Source: Streptomyces rubrogriseus (GTDB taxonomy: Bacteria; Actinomycetota; Actinomycetes; Streptomycetales; Streptomycetaceae). Taken from it: a DNA stretch of 64,000 nt. A program made the position numbers and the translations under genes. The stretch covers positions 2,480,001 through 2,544,000 of the forward strand of contig NZ_CP116256.1 of NCBI RefSeq assembly GCF_027947575.1, read 5' to 3'. Shown piece after piece: positions 36,580 to 53,986 of the stretch. How positions within the stretch are numbered: position 1 is the stretch's first letter; each line of letters opens with the position of its first letter. The notes under the pieces are model-generated. The model had not been told where the DNA came from. It saw only the letters and a program-made list of their open reading frames with translations, and searched no databases.

Positions 36580-37383
36580 TCATCCCAAGCGGGCCCCCAG
36601 CCCTCCCGTGCAGCGCACCTCGTCCCCCGCCGTGATCAGCAGCCCCTCGACGCCGGGCAGCGACTCCAGCCACCGCAACCCCTCCCGCGACCCCATCGCG
36701 AACGCCGCCGTCGCCCAGCAGTCCGCCCACGTCAGCCGGGACGCCACCACCGTCACGGACAGCAGGTCGGTCACCGCCGAGCGTCCGGTGCGCGGGTCGA
36801 CGACATGCGCCCCCCGCTCGGCGGAGCCGGACGTCGCCACGGCCAGCTCCGCCACCCCCGCCGCCGAGACGACCGCCGCGAGCCCGCCCGGCCGCAGCGG
36901 GTCGGACACACCGACCCGCCAGGGCCGCGCCGCCCCGGGCGTCCCGAGCAGCTGCACGTCCCCGCCCCCGTTGACGCTGACCCCGCTCGCGCCGCATGTC
37001 GCCGCGATCCCGCGTGCGGCGCGCTCCACGGCCCAGCCCTTGACGATCCCGGTCGGGTCGAGCCGGCCCCGGTACCGGGTGCTGAACCAGCCGTCGCTCA
37101 CCCGCTCCGCCTCGGCCGCCAGCTCCAGCACCTCGGCGACCTCCGGCGCGCACGCGGCGACGGTCAGTTCCCCGCGCGCCAGCCGGGAGATCTGGCTGCC
37201 GTCCCGGTACGTACTGAACACCTCGTCGACCCGGTGCAGCCCGGCGACCGCCTCGTCCAGTGCCGCCCGTACGGCCGCGGGTTCCCCGCCGCGGACGTCG
37301 AAGGAGAAGACGGTCCCCATCGCCTCCTCCGCATGACGCACCGCGGCGGGAGCCTCGGCGGACCCGGTCACGGTGTCAGCCAC
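36580..37383 (-). CDS. apbE: FAD:protein FMN transferase (ApbE)
   Basis: 267 residues. ApbE cleaves FAD and attaches FMN to a Thr/Ser of partner proteins. Motifs are FSTYRDGSQISRLARG, LDPTGIVKGWAVERA (flavin site), SVNGGGDVQLLG, and a C-terminal metal-binding VTVVASRLTWADCWATAAF. GTG 37383 overlaps the stop of the FMN-binding protein gene by 8 nt. No signal peptide is evident although most ApbE proteins act outside, so either it is exported differently or the start is misjudged. Its substrate is almost certainly the neighbour. Confidence 0.92.
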   Translation of the reverse strand: MADTVTGSAEAPAAVRHAEEAMGTVFSFDVRGGEPAAVRAALDEAVAGLHRVDEVFSTYRDGSQISRLARGELTVAACAPEVAEVLELAAEAERVSDGWFSTRYRGRLDPTGIVKGWAVERAARGIAATCGASGVSVNGGGDVQLLGTPGAARPWRVGVSDPLRPGGLAAVVSAAGVAELAVATSGSAERGAHVVDPRTGRSAVTDLLSVTVVASRLTWADCWATAAFAMGSREGLRWLESLPGVEGLLITAGDEVRCTGGLGARLG

Positions 37384-38173
37384 CGGCCCGGTCCAGCGCC
37401 GACTGGAGGGACTGTTTGTACCCCGCGCTGGTGTAGGTGGCGCCGGACACGGCGTCGATGTCGGCGGTGCCCGCGGTGACGGCGGCCCGGTTGAGCCTGG
37501 GTACGGCGTCGGCCGTGACCTGGTCGCTGCGGCCGCCCCGGGGCGCCTGGAGGGCCTCGGCGCCGGTGATCCTCCCGCCGCTGACGGTGACCCGGACCTG
37601 CACGGGTCCGTACTGGGTCTGCGCGGCGTCCCCGGTGAGCACCTGCGTGCCCTGCCCGGCGCCGCCCGCGCCCCGTCCGCCCTCGCCCGAGCCCGAGCCG
37701 CTCGACTCCTGCCCGGCGGGGCCGGCGGCCGCGGCCGCCTTGTCGAGTGCCGACTGGAGGGACTTCCGGTACCCGGCGCTGGTGTAGGTGGCGCCGGACA
37801 CGGCGTCGATGTCGGCGGTGCCCGCGGTGACGGCGGCCCGGTTGAGCCTGGGTACGGCGTCGGCGGTGATCCGGTCGCTCTGCCCGCCCCTGGGCGCCTG
37901 CACGGCCTCGGCCCCGGTGACCCTGCCCTCGCTCACCGTGACCCGGACCTGCACGGGTCCGTACTGGGTCTGCGCGGCGTCACCCGTGAGCGTGCCGGCT
38001 CCGGCGCCCCGGCCGCCCTGGGGCGACTGCGCGGCCACGGGCGGTGCCGCGCCGCCCGCCGCCGGGCCGGCGCCCGGGTCGGACGCCGGTTTCAGCGACA
38101 GCAGCAGCACGATCCCGGACACGGTGGCGGCCCCGGCGAGCACGGCACGCCGAACGGGGTGGCTTTTCCTCAT
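37376..38173 (-). CDS. Exported protein with two tandem FMN-binding domains
   Basis: 265 residues. An N-terminal signal/anchor (residues 8-27) is followed by a Pro/Gly linker, then two FMN_bind domains, each ending DAVSGATYTSAGY with the flavinylation Thr at 129 and 246. The domains repeat at exactly 117 codons and are nearly identical in DNA. ApbE-type enzymes add FMN to the Thr of D-x-x-SGAT. It should carry electrons between the membrane reductase upstream and an external acceptor. Confidence 0.93.
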   Translation of the reverse strand: MRKSHPVRRAVLAGAATVSGIVLLLSLKPASDPGAGPAAGGAAPPVAAQSPQGGRGAGAGTLTGDAAQTQYGPVQVRVTVSEGRVTGAEAVQAPRGGQSDRITADAVPRLNRAAVTAGTADIDAVSGATYTSAGYRKSLQSALDKAAAAAGPAGQESSGSGSGEGGRGAGGAGQGTQVLTGDAAQTQYGPVQVRVTVSGGRITGAEALQAPRGGRSDQVTADAVPRLNRAAVTAGTADIDAVSGATYTSAGYKQSLQSALDRAGG

Positions 38174-50890: not shown

Positions 50891-50917
50891 ACCGCTGTCC
50901 AGTATCCGGACAGCGGT
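50891..50917 (+). terminator. Hairpin after the HAD gene
   Basis: ACCGCTGTCC (50891-50900) pairs perfectly with GGACAGCGGT (50908-50917), loop AGTATCC. It is a likely terminator for the HAD gene, or alternatively an operator for the following metNIQ promoter. Confidence 0.7.
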
Positions 50918-50954
50918 CTCCGGCCAGGGGCATACGTCTGCTTTACTGATCGGC

Positions 50955-51044
50955 ATGAGCACCACGAGCGACCGCACCCCTGCGACCGAGGCGACCACGA
51001 CGCCCGGTGCTCGTTGTATGTGCCGCCGAATGTGCGCCTTCTAG
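50955..51044 (+). CDS. Short Cys/Met-rich leader peptide ahead of metNIQ
   Basis: 29-residue ORF starting MSTTSDRTPATEATTT and ending GARCMCRRMCAF. Three Cys and two Met codons fall within eight codons just before the TAG at 51042. A weak -10-like TTTACT (50942-50947) lies 7 nt upstream, so the ATG may be leaderless. It ends about 240 nt before metN. Actinobacteria use Cys-rich leader peptides for sulfur-gene attenuation; an ORF with both Cys and Met codons directly upstream of a methionine transporter is the expected form of such a control element, which is inference. It is too short for normal gene calling. Confidence 0.7.
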   Translation: MSTTSDRTPATEATTTPGARCMCRRMCAF

Positions 51045-51285
51045 AGGGCCCCCGCACCACCTGAGTCTCGCGCCCCGAAGCGAGCGCCCCCTCGTGCCCG
51101 CCCGCGCCCCACGCGCACGCGGCCGAGCCACGCCCCGCGCACGTTTCTCCCCGGTCCCACCGCCGTGGCGCACCGCCACCGCGAGAACCGTGCCGCGTTC
51201 CGAAGGGCCCCGAGAACCCGAAGAACAACGCCCCGTGCCCGGCGCACACCACCGCGCCGCGCACTCGACAGTGACGGAAACCCAC
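51032..51285 (+). promoter_or_regulatory. metNIQ leader region with possible attenuation structures
   Basis: GTGCG (51032-51036, covering the last Cys codon of the leader ORF) can pair with CGCAC (51053-51057). CTCGC (51067-51071) pairs with GCGAG (51080-51084), and GTGGCG (51165-51170) pairs with CGCCAC (51174-51179). No T-run follows, so any termination would be Rho-dependent or act at translation. I see no SAM riboswitch signature. Confidence 0.4.
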
Positions 51286-52359
51286 GTGATCACCACATCG
51301 GGCCTCACCAAGGTCTATCGTTCACGCGGCCGTGAGGTCACCGCCCTGGACGGCGTCGACCTGCACGTCCGCGAGGGCGAGGTGTACGGCGTCATCGGCC
51401 AGTCCGGCGCCGGCAAGTCCTCGCTCATCCGCTGCGTCAACCTCCTGGAGCGCCCCACCGCCGGCACGGTCACCGTCGCGGGAGCGGACCTCACCGCGCT
51501 GGCCGGCCGCGGCCCCCGCGCGGGCCGGGAACTGCGGCAGGCGCGCAGCCGCATCGGCATGGTCTTCCAGCACTTCAACCTGCTCTCCTCGCGGACCGTC
51601 CAGGACAACGTCGAACTACCGCTGGAAATCCTCGGCAAGTCCGGGAAGGAACGTTCCCGCAAGGCGCTGGAGCTGCTCGACCTCGTCGGTCTCGCCGACA
51701 AGGCCAAGGCCTACCCCGCCCAGCTCTCCGGCGGCCAGAAGCAGCGCGTCGGCATCGCCCGCGCCCTGGCCGGCGACCCCAAGGTCCTGCTCTCCGACGA
51801 GGCCACCAGCGCTCTCGACCCGGAGACCACCCGCTCCATCCTCCAGCTGCTGCGCGACCTGAACCGGCAGCTCGGACTGACGGTCCTGCTCATCACCCAC
51901 GAGATGGACGTCGTCAAGAGCATCTGCGACTCGGCCGCACTCATGGACCGGGGCCGCGTCGTCGAGTCCGGCACGGTCGGCGAACTGCTCGCCACTCCGG
52001 GCTCCGAGCTGGCCGCCGCGCTCTTCCCGGTCGGCGGCGAGGCGTCCGGCGACGACCGCACCGTCCTCGACGTGACCTTCCACGGCGAGGCCGCCACCCA
52101 GCCCGTCATCTCCCAGCTCTCGCGCACCTACAACATCGACATATCGATCCTGGGCGCCGCCATCGACACCGTCGGCGGCCTCCAGATCGGCCGGATGCGC
52201 ATCGAACTGCCCGGACGCTACGAGGACAACGTCGTGCCCGTCGGCTTCCTGCGCGAACAGGGTCTCCAGATCGACGTGGTGAACGAGACGCCGGGGACGC
52301 CGGAGACGCCGACGACACCGGCCCAGTCGGCTTCGCTGGTGAAGGAAGGTGCCAAGTGA
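51286..52359 (+). CDS. metN: Methionine ABC transporter ATP-binding protein
   Basis: 357 residues from GTG 51286 (GTG 51271 also possible). Walker A is GQSGAGKSSL, the signature LSGGQKQRVGIARAL and Walker B VLLSDEATSALD. The C-terminal NIL (ferredoxin-like) domain, about 275-345 (FHGEAATQPVISQLSRTYN ... GLQIGRMRIELPG), binds methionine and inhibits the transporter when methionine is high. It is the first gene of metNIQ and probably controlled by the upstream leader. Confidence 0.95.
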   Translation: MITTSGLTKVYRSRGREVTALDGVDLHVREGEVYGVIGQSGAGKSSLIRCVNLLERPTAGTVTVAGADLTALAGRGPRAGRELRQARSRIGMVFQHFNLLSSRTVQDNVELPLEILGKSGKERSRKALELLDLVGLADKAKAYPAQLSGGQKQRVGIARALAGDPKVLLSDEATSALDPETTRSILQLLRDLNRQLGLTVLLITHEMDVVKSICDSAALMDRGRVVESGTVGELLATPGSELAAALFPVGGEASGDDRTVLDVTFHGEAATQPVISQLSRTYNIDISILGAAIDTVGGLQIGRMRIELPGRYEDNVVPVGFLREQGLQIDVVNETPGTPETPTTPAQSASLVKEGAK

Positions 52360-53093
52360 CCTGGTCGCAGATGCAGCCGCTGCTGGAGCAGGCGTCCTGG
52401 GAGACCCTGATCATGGTCGGCTGGTCCACCCTGATCGCCGTCGTCGTCGGTCTGCCGCTCGGCGTGCTCCTCGTCCTCACCGACCGGGGCGGCCTGCTGC
52501 AGAACGTCGTGGTCAACAAGGTCATCGGGCAGATCGTGAACATCGGCCGCTCGATGCCGTTCATCATCCTCATGGTCGCGCTGATGAGCTTCACCCGCTG
52601 GGTCACCGGCACCACCATCGGCAGCGAGGCCGCCATCGTGCCGCTCGCCATCGGCGGCATCCCGTTCTTCGCGCGGCTCGTCGAGACCGCCGTGCGCGAG
52701 GTCGACGGAGGGCTCGTCGAGGCCGTCCAGTCCATGGGCGGCAACACCTGGACCATCGTCCGCAAGGTGCTGGTCCCCGAGGCGCTCCCGTCGCTGATCG
52801 CCAGCACCACCACCACCGTCATCGCCCTCATCGGCTACTCCGCCATGGCGGGCACCGTCGGCGGCGGCGGCCTCGGCGACCTCGCCGTCCGCTACGGCTA
52901 CCAGCGCTTCGAACCCGACTTCATGTGGATCACCGTCGCGCTCCTCGCCGTCGCCATCTCGCTCATCCAGTTCGCCGGCGACTACGCGGCCCGCACCCTG
53001 CACCGCCGCGGCGGACGCGGCGGAGCCGCACCCAGGCTCCGGCTGCTCAGGGCCAAGGAGCCCGCCGCGGCCGACGTCGGCAAGGTCGCCTGA
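52356..53093 (+). CDS. metI: Methionine ABC transporter permease
   Basis: 245 residues with five to six transmembrane helices. The EAA-loop pattern (EVDGGLVEAVQSMGGNTWTIVRKVLVPEALP) contacts MetN. GTG 52356 overlaps the metN stop (GTGA). A short Arg-rich C-terminal tail (ARTLHRRGGRGG) is not typical but common in Streptomyces. It brings D/L-methionine across the membrane with MetN and MetQ. Confidence 0.95.
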   Translation: MTWSQMQPLLEQASWETLIMVGWSTLIAVVVGLPLGVLLVLTDRGGLLQNVVVNKVIGQIVNIGRSMPFIILMVALMSFTRWVTGTTIGSEAAIVPLAIGGIPFFARLVETAVREVDGGLVEAVQSMGGNTWTIVRKVLVPEALPSLIASTTTTVIALIGYSAMAGTVGGGGLGDLAVRYGYQRFEPDFMWITVALLAVAISLIQFAGDYAARTLHRRGGRGGAAPRLRLLRAKEPAAADVGKVA

Positions 53094-53158: not shown

Positions 53159-53986
53159 GTGCGTAACACCGCCAAGTTCACCACCGCCGTCCTCGCCGCC
53201 GGAGCCCTCACCCTCGGGCTGACCGCCTGCGGCTCCGACAAGGACTCCGCCTCCGACACCTCGGGACCGCTGGTCGTCGCCGCGAGCCCCACCCCGCACG
53301 CCGAGATCCTCGACTACGTCAAGGACAACCTGGCCAAGGACGCGGGCCTCGACCTCGAGGTCAAGGAGTTCACCGACTACGTCACGCCGAACACGGCGAC
53401 GGAGGACGGCTCCGTGGGGGCCAACTACTTCCAGACCCAGCCCTACCTCGACGAGTTCAACAACAAGAACGGCACCCACATCGTGTCCGTCGTCGACGTG
53501 CACCTGGAGCCCCTGGGCCTCTACTCCCACAAGGTGAAGAAGGCCGACGACCTGAAGAGCGGTGCGACCGTCGCCGTCCCCAACGACACCGTCAACGAGG
53601 GCCGCGCGCTGCAGCTGCTCGCCGCCAACGGGATCATCACCCTCAAGGACGGCGTCGGCACCGCGGCGACCCCCTCGGACATCACCGAGAACCCGAAGAA
53701 GCTGGAGTTCAAGGAGCTGGAGGCGGCCCAGACCCCGCGCTCCCTGGACGACGTGGACGCCGCGGTCGTCAACGGCAACTACGCCATCGAGGCCGACCTG
53801 AAGCCCGCCCAGGACGCCCTCGTCCTGGAGAGCGCCAAGGGCAACCCGAACAGCAACCTCCTCGCCGTCAAGGAGGGCCACGAGGACGACCCGCGGGTCA
53901 AGAAGCTCGCGAAGCTCCTCAACTCGCCCGAGGTGAAGAAGTTCATCGAGGACAAGTACGCCGGCGCGGTCCTGCCCTCCTTCTGA
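53159..53986 (+). CDS. metQ: Methionine-binding lipoprotein (NlpA/MetQ family)
   Basis: 275 residues from GTG 53159. The lipobox LTAC (Cys at residue 24) anchors it to the membrane. The NlpA fold is shown by TPHAEILDYVKDNLAKDAGL, EFTDYVTPNTATEDG, ANYFQTQPYLDEFN and VAVPNDTVNEGRALQLL. It captures methionine outside the cell for MetNI. It is separated from metI by 65 nt and ends at a strong terminator. Confidence 0.96.
   Translation: MRNTAKFTTAVLAAGALTLGLTACGSDKDSASDTSGPLVVAASPTPHAEILDYVKDNLAKDAGLDLEVKEFTDYVTPNTATEDGSVGANYFQTQPYLDEFNNKNGTHIVSVVDVHLEPLGLYSHKVKKADDLKSGATVAVPNDTVNEGRALQLLAANGIITLKDGVGTAATPSDITENPKKLEFKELEAAQTPRSLDDVDAAVVNGNYAIEADLKPAQDALVLESAKGNPNSNLLAVKEGHEDDPRVKKLAKLLNSPEVKKFIEDKYAGAVLPSF

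Follow-up and report, generated by a model that had tools for sequence, protein, structure and literature searches.

The short ORF in front of metNIQ in Streptomyces rubrogriseus is probably a translated, leaderless regulatory leader peptide of these genes, through which the supply of methionine and cysteine would be sensed by ribosome stalling and attenuation. The ORF, its frame, its Met/Cys-rich tail, a frozen CGA-AUG codon pair and evidence for RNA helices in the leader all emerge from the comparison of related loci. The peptide itself is not new, although the preliminary description called it unannotated: the identical sequence of S. lividans TK24 was published as metL (SLIV_29928), a 29-residue peptide upstream of metNIQ whose mRNA is leaderless according to RNA-seq (Droste et al., 2021; PMC8079986). 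New are the comparative data, namely the conservation, the RNA helices, the CGA-AUG pair and a counterpart in the sister family. In a literature search for such a leader, with subscription journals mostly outside coverage, no further paper was recognised, and the main text of a Term-seq paper on S. griseus contains neither "metN" nor "methionine" (PMC8914203). If the proposed reading holds, methionine uptake in a large group of antibiotic producers would be tied to the supply of both cysteine and methionine, by a leader peptide whose sensing codons are retained as its RNA fold turns over.

The metL ORF and the metNIQ Genes

The window, i.e., the whole 64-kb stretch of DNA that was analysed, carries the 29-codon ORF on the forward strand at 50955–51044, exactly where it had been placed, with the product MSTTSDRTPATEATTTPGARCMCRRMCAF. 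The five Cys and Met codons that had drawn attention to it (C21, M22, C23, M26 and C27) fall within seven codons close to the stop, in the tail C-M-C-R-R-M-C (51015–51035), whose CGA (51027–51029) and ATG (51030–51032) form the frozen pair. The stop codon lies 241 nt before the presumed metN start, GTG 51286. On the same strand follow metN (51286–52359), encoding the ATP-binding subunit with its NIL domain (Pfam ABC_tran and NIL; best NCBIfam match MetN, under its cut-off), metI (52356–53093), encoding the permease (BPD_transp_1), and metQ (53162–53986, start approximate), encoding the lipoprotein (Lipoprotein_9, E 3.2e-98). A metN start at 51286 rather than 51235 is favoured by single-base indels found just before 51286 between relatives, and by the MIEIKNLTKVY start of the sister family.

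Tails of this composition are rare. At least five Cys or Met residues in the last nine codons occur in 2 of the 456 ORF tails of the window, five were reached by none of 18103 tails in a first-order Markov control, and Cys and Met account for 0.75% and 1.5%, respectively, of the codons of the predicted genes of the window. The other of the two tails in the window, the Cys-rich CPGSCCCCR (38092–38094, reverse strand), lies out of frame within a predicted gene (37376–38173) and was judged to be a chance occurrence.

Conservation of the Tail Codons

Conservation was assessed in an unfiltered set of ORFs, chosen by a –10-like box and by position before metN with no demand on Cys, Met or CGA. In this set 189 of 204 loci yielded an ORF (several of the other 15 lie near a locus end), and all of the 147 distinct ORFs contain an in-frame CGA-ATG, with one or more Cys and one or more Met among their last nine residues. 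The preliminary description had proposed that Cys and Met codons, and not the rest of the peptide, should be conserved among relatives; since the Met/Cys tail is kept in 147/147 same-genus ORFs and in 7/7 loci of the sister family after a different N-terminal part, this expectation was confirmed, and selection on the Cys and Met codons of a leader peptide is supported at the level of sequence. A set of 145 ORFs, used for several counts below, came from a finder with three requirements: a –10-like box, an M with C or R directly after it close to the C-terminus, and two Cys among the final 16 residues. This set is therefore partly selected for Cys, and the finder missed three true leaders (L189, L191, and L192), whose inserts are long. 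In a further set, chosen by the P3 helix and ATG only, all of the 153 true distinct leaders (155 minus two wrong matches) have at least two Cys and at least one Met after PGA.

The reading frame is preserved as well. In 142 of the 145 distinct ORFs the P3 arm and CGAATG are separated by a distance divisible by three, over eight lengths, and the other three (L094, L149, and L197) are errors of the first anchor, in which CGAATG is likewise in frame with the ATG. Some inserts in the tail bring extra Cys or Met, for example RCMCRLMCRMCAF, and others none; where a base was lost at the stop codon, a stop was still kept (TAG to TGA). Outside the ORF, the distances from stop to P5 are spread over the three residues modulo 3 (92, 20, and 29). 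An ordinary upstream ORF devoid of sensing, whose leaderless translation would do no more than determine the amount or stability of metNIQ mRNA, would be in keeping with the frequency of leaderless transcripts in Streptomyces (17% of the primary transcription start sites in S. lividans; PMC8079986), but it is very unlikely, given the Cys/Met-rich tails kept across two families and the extra Cys and Met residues of some inserts.

Within the tail, the Met codon is conserved better than any one Cys codon. RMC is present in 125/145 same-genus ORFs and in 38/39 ORFs from other genera, and CGA-ATG in 35/39 of the latter. No Cys codon is invariant: 20/145 ORFs have none directly after the last CGA-ATG, while the codon before it is TGT in 106/145 and TGC in 11/145. 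Both TGT and CGA are uncommon in the predicted genes of the window, where they make up 4 of 109 Cys codons and 47 of 1285 Arg codons.

Distribution of the Leader

A 146-nt leader query found matches in 376 of 392 same-genus genomes, a count of matches in which the position was checked for some genomes and not for each. Ten of the 16 genomes devoid of a leader match also have no metN match at E ≤ 1e-60; the other six comprise three with a diverged leader, two in which metN is cut at a contig end and one with distant matches only. With a covariance model of the leader (E ≤ 0.1), matches were obtained in 99 of 150 genomes of the family, in 13 of 17 genera; 40 of these loci were fetched and read, and since the tail is part of the model, conserved tails are favoured among them. 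A pattern scan of named genomes returned at least 119 stretches, all of them from Streptomyces among the matches listed. The genome of the window itself has a single strong leader match, the next best having an E value of 2.2; a TGYCGAATGTG match at 7702005, antisense to a long ORF that presumably encodes an NADH dehydrogenase subunit, was taken as chance.

In the order outside the genus, metN was found in 7 of 15 genomes, at 68–71% identity. An ORF that looks leaderless, its ATG lying 7 nt after a TATAGT box, precedes all seven metN loci of the sister family; its N-terminal part is unrelated to that of metL. These ORFs end in CRMCSC (four), CRMCGC (two) or CRMYGC (one), and both the codons TG[TC]-CGA-ATG and the residues CRM(C/Y) are present in 7/7. 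On reading these seven loci, neither the helices P1–P3 and P5 described below nor the GAGGGCC motif were seen, and therefore the tail codons outlive the RNA fold. Outside the order, 12 metN loci of other families in the class (50–64% identity) were read, and two of them have Cys/Met-rich short ORFs, neither with CRMC. One of these two ORFs, MTTTAGTPRHLRRAAPMACCRRPDASC in L338, has TAGGGT 7 nt upstream of its ATG and lies about 567 nt before the Walker A motif of MetN; it could be a distant counterpart or a product of chance.

RNA Structure of the Leader

Four helices can be drawn in and just after the ORF. P1 (50961–51017) pairs 50961–50969 with 51009–51017, with one mismatch in the sequence of the window and a compensatory change in L008; its helices 1 and 2 are paired in 86.8 and 95.3% of cells. 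P2 (50973–50984) pairs 50973–50976 with 50981–50984 (91.3% of cells paired, two of four pairs changed on both sides), and P3 (50985–51008) pairs 50985–50993 with 51001–51008, with one bulged A (99.4% of cells paired, two of eight pairs changed on both sides). After the stop, the hairpin P5, CTCGC-GCCCCGAA-GCGAG (51067–51084), is paired in 94.9% of cells with three of five pairs changed on both sides, and its core is present in 135/145 same-genus leaders and 28/39 from other genera. P3 was predicted by RNAalifold; P1, P2, P5 and the later P6 were named by eye. Over 43 leaders, P1–P3 and P5 are paired in 93.9% of 1118 cells, and changes on both sides affect 9 of 26 pairs in 22 cells, against 3.5 and 4.9 in shuffled alignments (0/500 reach the observed value), counts to be read with the provisos that the helices were chosen on the same sequences and that shuffling ignores relatedness. 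One slid version of these helices also reaches nine such pairs, with 14 cells and 38.7% pairing. RNAalifold on whole-leader alignments, which run across the variable spacer, gave noisy results.

In L008 both sides of P1 are changed, ACGAACAGC pairing with GCTGTTTGT (the DNA was compared for this locus), as would follow from selection acting more on the RNA fold than on the N-terminal peptide; N5 and V20 are common to the three peptides of L008, L066 and L088. Two other features of individual leaders concern the region around the stop. In L133 and L189–L192 a second ACCGAGGCGA stretch, identical to the P3 arm within the ORF, follows the stop directly before P5. In the family loci L253, L262, L285, L289 and L290 the motif CTGAGG(G)CC, usually overlapping the stop, is kept about 5 nt after an earlier TGA, so that it is apparently an RNA signal distinct from the stop.

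The conserved entity might then be an RNA element, e.g., a leader that binds a ligand or a protein, with the ORF as its by-product. The compensatory changes in P1–P3 and P5 and a conservation at the nucleotide level that includes a rare third-position T would suit such an element, which we consider quite unlikely all the same: indels in the tail keep the frame as described, whereas the spacing after the stop does not vary in threes; the sister family has a leaderless-looking ORF with the same tail and no visible fold; and the leader is not matched by Rfam in the window or in five relatives. More precisely, no Rfam covariance model matches the metL leader even at E ≤ 5, and none reaches the gathering score in the leaders of the five relatives; there is therefore no sign of a SAM riboswitch, as had been noted from the letters of the sequence.

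Pairing of the tail itself was considered in two forms. An alternative helix of the tail with P5, predicted by RNAalifold, is paired in 97% of cells, but it is not supported as the cause of tail conservation, as it has no change on both sides and loci devoid of the P5 core keep the tail. The preliminary description had proposed a stem overlapping the last Cys codon. Its arms, 51032–51036 (GTGCG) and 51053–51057 (CGCAC), exist, but the exact partner is limited to some species, with C[AG]CAC within 22 nt of the stop in 50/145 same-genus ORFs and 3/39 from other genera. A looser partner (any 5-nt complement, G-U allowed, up to 30 nt after the stop) is found in 134/145 and 24/39, and some pairing of the tail just after the stop, beyond the exact stem, may exist. 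What stands of the original leader-peptide reading is thus the selection on Cys and Met codons (147/147 and 7/7), and what is not supported is the word "unannotated" and the exact stem.

Promoter and Transcriptional Input

A –10-like box, TTTACT (50942–50947), lies 7 nt before the ATG, and the mRNA is therefore expected to be leaderless. The same hexamer occurs in 137/145 same-genus leaders and a spacing of 6–7 nt in 142, in a set that was chosen for having such a box. Further upstream, the palindrome CCGCTGTCC-N7-GGACAGCGG (50892–50916), with perfect 9-bp arms at about –63 to –39 from the transcription start, is a possible activator site; GTCC-N5-9-GGAC is present within 120 nt upstream in 131/145 same-genus leaders and 29/39 from other genera.

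This conserved upstream motif would agree with a regulation that is mainly transcriptional, through the palindrome or SenR, the leader having a minor part. Expression data point in the same direction: metNIQ (SCO1557–1559) is upregulated with cys genes under oxidative stress in the wild type, an hbpS-senS-senR mutant is devoid of normal metNIQ induction, and a SenR site is predicted before SCO1559 (PMC4991794). A transcriptional input to metNIQ is likely, and the two layers can coexist; as the principal control, however, it is rather unlikely, the conservation of the leader being left unexplained. The SenR site, predicted 31 nt before SCO1559 (PMC4991794), falls at 51188–51202 in the window, which fits an annotated metN start at GTG 51235 better than one at 51286.

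A Possible Mechanism

From this anatomy we infer stalling, a response to methionine and cysteine, and a termination step. Ribosomes would start at the 5′ AUG, open the P1–P3 fold while reading and arrive at the tail, UGU-(insert)-CGA-AUG-UGY-N-N-stop. With scarce Met-tRNA or Cys-tRNA they would stall in the tail and metNIQ expression would rise, while with both plentiful the ribosome would finish and leave, and less metNIQ would be made. The lowering step would most likely be premature termination, perhaps Rho-dependent, in the C-rich spacer before a hairpin, P6. Stalling on Met/Cys codons fits, as far as anatomy can tell, both the leader and the published precedents.

The C-rich, G-poor spacer (51085–51234) might act as a Rho loading region. 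The C-over-G skew of the entire gap from stop to metN is positive in 145/145 and 39/39 loci; in the window it is 0.27, above all 27 listed 5′ flanks (highest 0.24; one flank overlaps the leader), and the mid-gap value is reached by 2.4% of 110-nt background windows. Such a spacer is compatible with Rho and is not proof of it, other causes of C-richness being possible. By reading, no intrinsic terminator with a U-run was found, P6 being followed by TCGACAGTGACGG and P5 by CGCCCCC. P6 (51235–51264; 51235–51238 with 51261–51264 and 51240–51245 with 51254–51259) precedes the metN start region. RNAalifold predicted no pair on the pre-metN alignment; P6 was afterwards picked out by eye and its pairs were counted: 83.2% of 327 cells are paired, and seven of eight pairs are changed on both sides, in 10 cells against 2.8 in shuffled alignments and 11 in one slid version. 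Folding before metN has a mean z of –1.47, with 28 of 42 loci below –1.

Alternatively, the switch could be translational: the tail, when free, would pair with the metN start region, and a stalled ribosome would keep the two apart, as described for the polycysteine ORFs of mycobacteria. In single-sequence folding, many loci show pairing between the tail and the surroundings of the metN start (16–17% of that region on average), the UGUCGA of the tail is complementary to a UCGACA before metN in many Streptomyces loci, and short ORFs controlled by stalling are known (PMC9031893, PMC13236596). These points keep the switch in consideration as a doubtful possibility, against which several results speak. 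Cognate pairing is not stronger than pairing between swapped partners (mean –15.4 versus –16.1 kcal/mol; p 0.87 and 0.999), and among the 20 g27 loci fetched, which keep the tail, only 2 have UCGACA in the spacer; no co-evolution of tail pairing with the metN start or with the region after the ORF was found. The pairing of UGUCGA with UCGACA was therefore rejected as a general rule. With a stalled ribosome masked, the predicted accessibility of the metN start rises in 23 of 42 loci and falls in 8 (stalled at the first Cys) or 2 (at the last Cys), and the mean changes little, from 0.47 when free to 0.50–0.52 with a stalled and 0.51 with a terminating ribosome. Masking does not discriminate between the stalled and the terminating ribosome. 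Attenuation by stalling, with a lowering step before metN, is the reading we retain.

The fixed rare Arg codon CGA before Met is the most interesting point of the leader. Decoding of CGA is slow elsewhere. In the genome of the window, ARAGORN names 67 of 68 tRNA matches, the remaining one reading as Gly TCC, and among the Arg anticodons it lists ACG, CCG, CCT and TCT, and no TCG. In bacteria, as a general rule, CGA is read by the ACG tRNA, which carries inosine (PMC10454642). If CGA is read here only by this tRNA through an inosine-adenine wobble, a ribosome on CGA would be poised to stall at low Met-tRNA; the codon might thus be a built-in sensitiser of the sulfur-amino-acid sensor, with the flanking Cys codons as a second signal. 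We regard this idea as tentative and on balance unlikely. Against CGA as a slow codon, four consecutive CGA codons did not impede a reporter in wild-type Bacillus subtilis (PMC10454642). Were it true, metL would be a two-amino-acid attenuator tuned by the codon of a third amino acid, and with the frozen CGA-AUG pair it can be tested directly whether the choice among synonymous codons tunes an amino-acid sensor.

Comparison With Known Systems

As judged from its sequence, metL appears to share with ribosome-mediated attenuators a short translated upstream ORF and a run of the relevant codons. It resembles neither an attenuator with an intrinsic terminator nor a SAM riboswitch or another Rfam leader. 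Methionine genes of Streptomyces have RNA elements of their own, the Streptomyces-metH and Streptomyces-metK RNAs (RF03063 and RF03076), which are SAM riboswitches (PMC8079986), whereas the metL leader belongs to no Rfam family. The closest system is metL of S. lividans TK24 itself, with the same peptide, leaderless and before metNIQ; in its published description, as far as it was available, Met and Thr are noted and Cys is not, and the termination is called unclear (PMC8079986).

Candidate leader peptides of cys operons have been reported in Mycobacterium and others, with a suggested role of Rho (Seliverstov et al., 2005; PMC1262725). Like metL, they have Cys codons near the stop and no conserved terminator hairpin; they differ in the operon, and the account consulted mentions no Met codons. 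Before methionine operons, that study found no conserved RNA structures. In the polycysteine leaderless short ORFs of mycobacteria, downstream genes are regulated by the Cys-dependent speed of elongation (Canestrari et al., 2020; PMC9031893, PMC9094748, PMC13236596). They and metL are both leaderless short ORFs with Cys codons, metL starting at its AUG; the Cys codons of the mycobacterial ORFs are contiguous, whereas Met and Arg separate those in the CMCRRMC of the window. In some of the g27 relatives CC is found. Unlike the polycysteine ORFs, metL combines an invariant Met codon and a fixed CGA with a place in front of the genes of methionine uptake.
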